Below, one piece after another: positions 11,949 through 20,116 of a stretch of DNA of 39,856 nt; the stretch's first letter is position 1, and every line of letters starts with the position of its first letter. A program made the position numbers and the translations under genes. Source of the stretch: Chloroflexales bacterium (GTDB lineage: Bacteria > Chloroflexota > Chloroflexia > Chloroflexales > Chloroflexaceae); the NCBI GenBank assembly GCA_022360155.1, contig JAKSDJ010000083.1, positions 1 through 39,856 of the forward strand, read 5' to 3'. The notes under the pieces were generated by a model. It saw only the letters and a list, made by a program, of their open reading frames with translations, was not told the origin of the DNA and made no database searches.

Positions 11949-12668
11949 ACCACTTGGGAATTTGGCTTCGCGATTTTGCGTTTCTCGGCTGCACAGCCAA
12001 GATTACAATTCAACATCGCAAATCCATGAAATGGCCCTGCCTTGTCGTGAACGGGTCAGTTTCGAACCTGCATAAGCAGGTGGGTGCCCGCCTGTAAGCT
12101 TTTGCGGCCCGCCGCATAACTTAACTCGTTAGAGCAAAGCTCCCAGAGAAACTGTGTTGGCTCAAAACATATACCCGTACACGTACAGGGCGGGGCTACC
12201 AGATAATACCACGGGGCATCAGAATGTGCAACCACTAGCGATAGTCGCACAATATGCATAAAAACTCATCATCTAGCCAGGTCGTAATCCCCCCACATGT
12301 CCGAAGCACACTGAGAGTTTCGCAGATATCATGATAAAAGAGGACGGATCAATTGGAAGCAAGCCACACTTGGGCGCAGCTTCCGCGTGTCTGTCTACTC
12401 AAGCAACATGGGGAGGATATGGCATTCCACTCACAATGACTGCATTGCAATGCAGTCAGAGTTCGGTTTCAAATCTAGCAGTCTGCGGTCAAAAGGATGC
12501 CGGTAGATTTCCGGCGCCCTTTGTTGAGATACCTTGCCCTCAGCGCCAGCATTGTCACATAACCCGCTGGGGGCAAGGAGTTGTTAGCGGTGTATCTAGG
12601 GCGTCCCCTCAACACATCGTTGAGCAATAAGACCTCGAAGTGATACGCTTTATTGAAAGGAGCTACGT
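11949..12668. other. Gene-free region upstream of the 287-residue secreted protein
   Basis: About 720 bp without a convincing gene; the open frames here lack ribosome-binding sites and familiar sequence. The one clear structure is the 22-bp palindrome at 12437-12458. An AAAGGAG ribosome-binding site at the right end belongs to the next gene. Confidence 0.5.
12437..12458. repeat. Perfect 22-bp palindrome
   Basis: Arms TGACTGCATTG and CAATGCAGTCA meet with no spacer, about 210 bp ahead of the secreted-protein gene at 12669. With no loop it suits a dimeric DNA-binding protein better than an RNA hairpin. No function is assigned. Confidence 0.8.
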
Positions 12669-18674: not shown

Positions 18675-18800
18675 AGCGTTGACCTCCTTGTGATCTGTTG
18701 ACGGCTGTTCAATGGCTACCGGCGGCTGGGCGACTATCAAGCGTTGGGCGCTGCGCTGTTCAATAGTAATAGTCATAATGCTTATTTCCTCTCACTGATG

Positions 18801-18831
18801 CAAACAAAAACTCTCAGCTATGAGCTGAGAG
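18801..18831 (-). terminator. Intercistronic terminator-like hairpin across the aroH stop codon
   Basis: On the minus strand CTCTCAGCT, a 3-nt loop CAT, AGCTGAGAG, then TTTTTGTTTG. The aroH stop codon TAG (18820-18818) begins in the loop and runs into the stem. The tail TTTTTGTTTG is identical to that of the terminator ahead of aroH. A ribosome finishing aroH would cover the hairpin. Confidence 0.8.
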
Positions 18832-19225
18832 GTTGGGGTTGGGGCGCAAAGGCTGTCATTATCGCACGTTCTGGGCGTAGTCCCCGCGCACCGCGAATGT
18901 ACACATGGACAACGTCACTGGCGTGCCGGGTGGTATTCCAGTGAACCAGCACCCGGATACAGCGTTGCAAGCTGCCGGGTACATTCATTTCGTGCCCGCA
19001 CAAAAGCGCTGTATCGATCCAGCCCAACTCGCGGGCGGCAACCGCCGGGAACTCGGCATTGAGATCGGGCGTGGTGGTAAAGATCGCGCTGGCGATGTCT
19101 TCCGGTTTGATCCCGTTCGCGGCGATGAGGAGTTGCAATAACTCGCGCGTTGCTTCGAGGATCGCTTCACGTGTGTTTTCGGTTGCGGTGGTCGCACCAC
19201 GGATGCCTCGACACCAGATTGTCAT
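18818..19225 (-). CDS. aroH: Chorismate mutase, AroH type
   Basis: A 135-residue enzyme converting chorismate to prephenate, the branch to Phe and Tyr. It aligns well with the Bacillus subtilis AroH trimer: RGIRGATTATENTREAIL with the active-site Arg, TTTPDLNAEFPAVAARELGW, the CGHEMNVPGSLQRCIRVLV segment with the active-site Glu and Arg, and the C-terminal VHVYIRGARGLRP. I place the start at 19225, where GAGAGGG lies just upstream. A longer frame to 19288 would read through the leader terminator. It is preceded by a Phe/Tyr-rich leader peptide and terminator, and followed by aroF. Confidence 0.95.
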   Translation of the reverse strand: MTIWCRGIRGATTATENTREAILEATRELLQLLIAANGIKPEDIASAIFTTTPDLNAEFPAVAARELGWIDTALLCGHEMNVPGSLQRCIRVLVHWNTTRHASDVVHVYIRGARGLRPERAIMTAFAPQPQPLSS

Positions 19226-19256
19226 GATTGCCCTCTCTATTGACTGTCTAGCAGAC

Positions 19257-19292
19257 AAACAAAAAGGGCGTGGAGCTTGTTGCTCCACGCCC
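19257..19292 (-). terminator. Attenuator terminator ahead of aroH
   Basis: On the minus strand GGGCGTGGAGC, loop AACAA, GCTCCACGCCC, then TTTTTGTTTG. The 11-bp GC-rich stem with a T-run is a textbook intrinsic terminator. It lies after the leader peptide stop and 31 bp before the aroH start. A segment of the leader ORF (19345-19355) can pair, 9 of 11 positions, with 19290-19300, which overlaps the base of this hairpin. That makes a candidate antiterminator. Confidence 0.92.
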
Positions 19293-19317
19293 GCCGATAT
19301 TGTATTGCTATTCTTTC

Positions 19318-19398
19318 TTATATAACGCGAAGCAACCAGGCTTTATGTCGGCTGGTAAAGTAAAAGTAAAAATAAAAGCTGTTGCGACCGTACGACAT
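19318..19398 (-). CDS. Phe/Tyr leader peptide of the aroH-aroF attenuator
   Basis: A 26-codon ORF starting at the ATG at 19398 and ending in TAA at 19320-19318. GAGAGG lies 9 nt upstream of the start. The peptide begins MSYGRNS, then has seven consecutive aromatic codons, FYFYFYF, followed by TSRHKAW and a short tail. Such runs are the hallmark of leader peptides in ribosome-mediated attenuation, as in the Phe-rich leader of enterobacterial pheA. The alternating Phe and Tyr codons would let a ribosome stall when either charged tRNA is short. The promoter is about 38 bp upstream and the terminator begins 25 bp downstream. I infer control of aroH and aroF by Phe and Tyr. Confidence 0.88.
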   Translation of the reverse strand: MSYGRNSFYFYFYFTSRHKAWLLRVI

Positions 19399-19435
19399 TA
19401 TTAAAAGCCTCTCAATATAGGTTGCCTTCAAAGCG

Positions 19436-19464
19436 ACTATAACATACCCGCCTGTGCGAGTCAA
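19436..19464 (-). promoter_or_regulatory. Sigma-70-type promoter of the aroH-aroF leader
   Basis: On the minus strand TTGACT, exactly 17 nt, TATAGT. Transcription would start near 19429, giving a leader of about 200 nt before the aroH start codon. Confidence 0.85.
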
Positions 19465-19505
19465 GAGCAGTTATGACGAAAAACGATAACAAACTTGTCA
19501 TCGCT

Positions 19506-19531
19506 GATACATGATCATCGATACATGATCA
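19506..19531. repeat. Tandem pair of 12-bp direct repeats
   Basis: GATACATGATCA occurs at 19506-19517 and 19520-19531, a 14-bp period. It is directly after the ANTAR gene stop and about 40 bp upstream of the aroH promoter. It could be a regulator site; no family is recognised. Confidence 0.75.
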
Positions 19532-20116
19532 CTATGTACCCAAAAGTTCCTCAGCCTCAATAATCGCCTGGGCAATGTCTTTCATCTTCGCTCGCTTATC
19601 ACGCGCGCGCTGGCGCAGGCGCTCATAGGCGTCCCGCTCGCTCAAACCCAAACGCTGCATCAGAATACCTTTGGCCCGCTCGATCAGCTTACGCGCCTCG
19701 AGCGAGTCTTGCAACTCGACCACCTCGGCCCGTAGCGCCTGGATTTCCCTGAAACGAGCCAGCGCAATATTGATGGCTGGCGGCAATTCGTTTTCGTTCA
19801 CCGGCTTGACTAAATAGCCCAACGCACCTGCCGCTTCCGCCTTACGGATCGTATCTTTGTCCGCGTAGGCAGTAAGCATAATGATAGGAACAGGGTTGTT
19901 ATCCCGAATGCGGGCGGCAGCTTCAGTGCCTTCCATCTCCGGCATGCGAATATCCATAATGATCAGGTCTGGACTCAGGCGACCCGCCAAGTTGATAGCC
20001 TCTGTACCCGAACGGGCAATACCAATTACATCGTAGCCTAACCCTTTGAGTTGTTCCTCGAGCGTAAGCGAGACTAAATCGTTGTCTTCAGCAATCAGAA
20101 TCCGCGTAATCGCCAT
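19532..20116 (-). CDS. Response regulator with C-terminal ANTAR RNA-binding domain
   Basis: A 194-residue protein. Residues 1-120 are a receiver domain with the acidic pair at Glu10-Asp11, phosphoacceptor Asp55 in IIMDIRMPE, the LTAY Thr region and the KPV lysine. A short coiled coil (EIQALRAEVVELQDSLEARKLI) leads to an ANTAR domain (about 140-192: LIERAKGILMQRLGLSERDAYERLRQRARDKRAKMKDIAQAIIEAE). ANTAR proteins such as AmiR and NasR bind paired hairpins in nascent RNA and prevent termination. GAGGAG precedes the ATG. No histidine kinase is adjacent. The next gene downstream on the same strand is aroH, which has its own promoter and attenuator. Confidence 0.95.
   Translation of the reverse strand: MAITRILIAEDNDLVSLTLEEQLKGLGYDVIGIARSGTEAINLAGRLSPDLIIMDIRMPEMEGTEAAARIRDNNPVPIIMLTAYADKDTIRKAEAAGALGYLVKPVNENELPPAINIALARFREIQALRAEVVELQDSLEARKLIERAKGILMQRLGLSERDAYERLRQRARDKRAKMKDIAQAIIEAEELLGT

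Follow-up and report, generated by a model that had tools for sequence, protein, structure and literature searches.

The systems closest to the one described here are amino acid biosynthetic operons under ribosome-mediated attenuation. In the aroR leader of Corynebacterium glutamicum, Phe-Tyr-Phe codons attenuate the DAHP synthase operon (aroF) (Neshat et al., 2014, as described in PMC11802643), and the leader is reported there as responding to Phe and not to Tyr. A survey of 2010 gave leader-peptide systems as known only from Proteobacteria and Actinobacteria, to which it added the Firmicutes (PMC2965389). The window analysed here, positions 1 to 39,856 of contig JAKSDJ010000083.1 of a Chloroflexales bacterium (source genome of 8.9 Mb in 1048 contigs), very probably carries a further attenuator of this kind, which would sense charged tRNA-Phe and tRNA-Tyr jointly and control aroH and probably also aroF.

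The aroR system is the closest known case, as it likewise combines an aromatic leader peptide, ribosome-mediated attenuation and a DAHP synthase operon. It belongs to another phylum, and only three aromatic codons are named in its published description, whereas the leaders described below have five to eight mixed Phe/Tyr (Trp) codons and precede a chorismate mutase gene. With the enterobacterial pheL-pheA and trpL systems the locus shares control codons, a leader stop codon, an antiterminator, an intrinsic terminator and the same logic. Unlike these, it has joint Phe and Tyr codons and no conserved 1:2 hairpin, and its antiterminator segment, which competes for the terminator sequence, is contained entirely within the last part of the leader ORF. 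The histidine leader peptides of Firmicutes (PMC2965389, PMC9413887) were similarly found by comparison outside the Proteobacteria and Actinobacteria, but differ in amino acid, genes and phylum. A search of the window with Rfam at gathering scores returned tRNA and 6S RNA only and no leader family, while at permissive scores the best matches to the leader were L20_leader (19 bits) and the trpB motif (16.4 bits), both far below the cut-off. The 6S RNA gene is located at 12030-12199 on the minus strand (58.8 bits, above the gathering score).

All parts of the leader locus lie on the minus strand, in the order of extended -10 promoter, leader ORF, intrinsic terminator, aroH and aroF. The promoter, recognised from the sequence and from relatives, is TTGACT-N17-tgtTATAGT (19464-19436), with a TG ahead of the -10 element. 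The leader ORF runs from an ATG at 19398 to a TAA at 19318 and its 26 codons (19398-19318) encode the peptide MSYGRNSFYFYFYFTSRHKAWLLRVI, with homologous ORFs in relatives. It is preceded by a putative ribosome-binding site, GAGAGG (19413-19408), although in the other leaders of the order this site is mostly just weak and purine-rich. Within the ORF are seven consecutive control codons, TTT TAT TTT TAC TTT TAC TTT, encoding FYFYFYF (19377-19357). The ORF is followed by the terminator, GGGCGTGGAGC(aacaa)GCTCCACGCCC, with an 11-bp stem (19292-19266) and the T-rich tail TTTTTGTTTG extending to 19256. The gene aroH (19225-18818, ATG at 19225) encodes a monofunctional chorismate mutase of the AroH class (PF07736, E-value 2e-45; TIGR01796). 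Next is aroF (18674-17664), encoding a DAHP synthase with a ferredoxin-like regulatory domain (PF00793, PF18152, NF006421); the model covers the longest ORF from residue 35 onward, and the true start is probably 18674. Both genes feed the synthesis of Phe and Tyr. Directly upstream of the leader is a gene for an ANTAR-domain response regulator (19532-20116, minus strand), a neighbour shared by 31 of the 66 loci checked for it in the order. In a preliminary description of this DNA, made from its sequence alone, a Phe/Tyr leader peptide and terminator ahead of aroH-aroF had been proposed, with a near-consensus promoter, a 26-codon ORF with its GAGAGG and FYFYFYF run, and an 11-bp hairpin with a T-rich tail; all of these are present at the positions given here, and the run, stop position, terminator and promoter are conserved among relatives.

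Of 82 genomes from the order, comprising Chloroflexaceae and the Roseiflexus- and Herpetosiphon-type families, 75 yielded an aroH gene, and 70 aroH loci were examined. An aromatic-rich leader ORF of 19-32 codons was identified upstream of aroH at 68 of these, bearing out the expectation that the aromatic run would be conserved in related genomes. One of the order leaders (L029) is doubtful. At two loci (L060 and L062, from the related genomes G057 and G058) the leader is absent, with aroH-aroF present and aroH lying inside a longer open frame; a lineage-specific loss is probable here. Phe and Tyr both occur within the run of all 68 leaders and Trp occurs in addition in 13 (among them L014, L017, L019, L020, L021, L025, L030, L033 and L046), a Roseiflexus-type example being YFFWFWYF, such that these leaders may sense Phe, Tyr and Trp alike. 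The strict alternation of Phe and Tyr codons emphasised in the preliminary description is peculiar to a few species, but the conserved feature is the mixture of the two.

Codons of the run are aromatic in 76% of cases, against 31% expected from shuffling of the same bases, and codons for Leu, Ile or Val and stop codons together make up 1.5% of the run against 35% expected. In the other frames of the run the aromatic share is 14-23%. The aromatic excess and the depletion of Leu, Ile, Val and stop codons relative to shuffles show that selection acts on the codons and not merely on a U-rich tract. Taken alone, the bare seven-codon TWY pattern is not uncommon, with five matches at three separate places in the 8.9-Mb genome and six for a reversed control pattern; the evidence that the leader is more than chance lies in its conservation. 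A second seven-codon Phe/Tyr match of the genome (C682) was rejected, as there is no leader-like ORF there. A covariance model of the leader gave one full-length match per genome in 38 of 41 genomes of the family, always beside aroH; three genomes gave no match, and these were also the ones from which no aroH had been recovered.

All 68 of 68 relatives have a promoter that is no worse than that of the window and is similarly spaced from the start of the leader, compared with 5% of shuffles. No structure of the leader region is better conserved than the terminator: across 52 distinct sequences, 97.9% of the stem cells are paired and 63 cells have changed on both sides, a level of covariation reached by none of 500 shuffles. 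Conservation of the terminator in relatives, which had been put forward as a check of the proposal, is thereby borne out, with poor U-tracts in several Chloroflexus-type leaders and with one locus (L043) where the leader is present and no terminator was found.

The segment GTTGCTTCGCGTT (19336-19324), within the 3′ end of the leader ORF, can form 13 bp with GGCGTGGAGCAAC (19291-19279), which comprises the 5′ arm of the terminator and its loop. This pairing constitutes the predicted antiterminator. For almost every complete leader the duplex energy lies at about -15 to -28 kcal/mol, and at 48 of 55 loci the pairing exceeds 95% of shuffles that keep the peptide but exchange synonymous codons; 86% of its cells are paired, compared with 33-53% for slid controls. 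There is no excess of compensatory changes over shuffles, since the arm on the ORF side is nearly invariant. A different antiterminator had been suggested in the preliminary description, between 19355-19345 and 19300-19290; the pairing of 9 of 11 bases is present in the window but is not conserved, being paired in 42% of cells over 52 distinct relatives, which is no better than slid controls (up to 40.8%), and it was rejected as the general antiterminator.

The geometry of these leaders is also well kept. In 52 of 53 leaders the distance from the last aromatic codon to the first base of the antiterminator is 14-23 nt (median 17), and the 5′ arm ends from -10 to +2 nt relative to the leader stop codon, where it would be covered by a terminating ribosome; the position of the stop is conserved. 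The antiterminator start is expected to fall just past the reach of a ribosome stalled at the last aromatic codon, and a stalled and a terminating ribosome would act oppositely on this arm. The equilibrium favours the terminator (-23.7 kcal/mol) over the antiterminator (-17.2 kcal/mol), and the terminator is still obtained in folds where the assumed ribosome positions are blocked, from which we infer that the switch would have to be kinetic; an RNA ending at 19279 folds into the antiterminator.

When the leader RNA of the window species is folded to minimum energy with no ribosome on it, a strong protector (1:2) hairpin is predicted (19425-19332), which joins the beginning of the leader to 19350-19332, AGGCUUU and AUGUCG pairing with CGACAUAAAGCCU and GCAACC with GGUUGC. 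Such a hairpin is better than shuffles in just 8 of 53 relatives and is unsupported as a conserved part of the system. With the exception of a conserved protector hairpin, all testable defining features of leader-peptide attenuators appear to be present, as judged from sequence.

The leader, its codons, promoter and terminator, the alternative pairing and the geometry can be read directly from the loci compared, and together they suggest the following course of events, in which translation of the leader, stalling of the ribosome, a switch of kinetic nature and a response to Phe/Tyr supply are proposed. Judged from the promoter, the transcript would begin about 30 nt ahead of the leader ORF. 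When Phe and Tyr are plentiful, the ribosome would reach the stop codon and cover 19336-19324, allowing the terminator at 19292-19266 to form and transcription to stop. When charged tRNA-Phe or tRNA-Tyr is scarce, the ribosome would stall in the FYFYFYF run, leaving 19336-19324 free to pair with 19291-19279 once the latter is transcribed; this pairing would block the terminator and the polymerase would continue.

Joint control of chorismate mutase and DAHP synthase, as stated in the preliminary description, is favoured by gene order, with aroF directly downstream of aroH and on the same strand at 67 of 67 testable loci, but is made less certain for aroF by a terminator-like hairpin, CTCTCAGCT(cat)AGCTGAGAG, at 18831-18811, which overlaps the aroH stop codon. 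This hairpin precedes aroF and shares the tail TTTTTGTTTG with the terminator of the attenuator. Control of aroF could be uncoupled by it in the window species and would be weaker there than that of aroH because of its position between the two genes. Similar intercistronic hairpins were identified at about 10 other loci, while most loci are without one, and the attenuator's share of aroF transcription may therefore vary. It may even be that the attenuator controls aroH only and that aroF has a promoter of its own past the hairpin, as the hairpin and the 143-nt gap between the genes in the window and the similar hairpins elsewhere would allow; this we regard as unlikely, given the constant same-strand adjacency of the two genes, the majority of loci lacking such a hairpin and the leader's promoter being the sole promoter-like site detected within 18700-19560. 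A search of the stretch between aroH and aroF for a further aromatic leader turned up nothing consistent among the loci.

The neighbouring ANTAR gene allows a leader with two inputs to be conceived, in which the ribosome would sense Phe/Tyr(/Trp) and the ANTAR regulator would bind the nascent leader and add an environmental signal, an arrangement to which we give little credence. Slightly less credible again is a nascent-peptide arrest similar to that of TnaC, where the peptide together with free Phe/Tyr bound in the ribosome would stall translation in place of a shortage of charged tRNA. The residues F-T/S-S/G, which follow the run directly, and AW-S/L-LR at the end of the peptide are fairly conserved in two families, as such an arrest might require, but the latter stretch is also where the antiterminator arm is encoded, and it differs in Anaerolineae and in the remaining families of the order, while in the run itself the aromatic class alone is kept, with the order and number of residues varying. 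That the short ORF is incidental and the terminator or U-rich tract is regulatory, as part of a protein- or metabolite-binding leader, is the most improbable reading of all, for although no structure is better conserved than the terminator and the adjoining gene at 31 of 66 loci encodes an RNA-binding (ANTAR) regulator, the leader is retained at loci without that gene, no Rfam riboswitch or T-box was found at gathering scores and nothing convincing at permissive scores, and the aromatic share of the run (76% against 31%, with 14-23% in other frames) together with its near lack of Leu, Ile and Val codons speaks against it.

With ribosome-mediated attenuation as the preferred reading, its distribution was followed beyond the order. 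In other orders of the class, 2 of 40 aroH loci reached the threshold for a leader, both weakly. A wider sample consisted of 80 named aroH loci from GTDB genomes, where leaders with 5-8 aromatic residues in 9 were also identified in records of Ardenticatenia, Caldilineae, Anaerolineae and Thermoflexales; many of these have a terminator and several a strong antiterminator, while the planctomycetal and dehalococcoidial aroH genes of this sample were without a leader. Among a further 38 families of the phylum, such a leader was present at about 18 of 60 aroH loci. The state of the leader was consistent within families sampled at least twice, for example with f65, f59, f47, f75 and f17 positive and f28, f60 and f77 negative. 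On a tree of aroH the trait is clustered (11 changes compared with 29 when shuffled), with the leader-bearing loci L133, L134 and L136 counted as having none; as few branches are resolved and these three rows are mislabelled, the tree does not decide between an old origin and repeated gain. Upstream of trpE, no Trp-rich or equally dense aromatic leader was found at any of 30 loci, nor was an aromatic leader of such density found upstream of pheA, also at 30 loci. The attenuator proposed from the window genome is thus one that extends throughout the order, and comparable leaders recur in further classes of Chloroflexota.

The mechanism class is already known, and what appears to be new is a leader-peptide attenuator in Chloroflexota, a mixed-aromatic sensor and chorismate mutase as the first target, no earlier report of a leader-peptide attenuator in this phylum having been found in the literature searched. 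The suggestion in the preliminary description that joint Phe and Tyr sensing by strictly alternating codons in a Chloroflexota-like genome had not been described holds as far as that literature goes, but needs to be qualified by the Phe-Tyr-Phe leader of C. glutamicum aroR, as it is described in PMC11802643.

The leader provides a ready marker for the annotation of short ORFs and a clean system in which joint amino acid sensing can be tested. The variation between Phe/Tyr and Phe/Tyr/Trp leaders illustrates how, in a branched pathway, a single sensor might be adjusted to several of the end products. Its conservation throughout the order and its recurrence in other classes suggest that this mode of amino acid sensing is either old or easily gained in the phylum.
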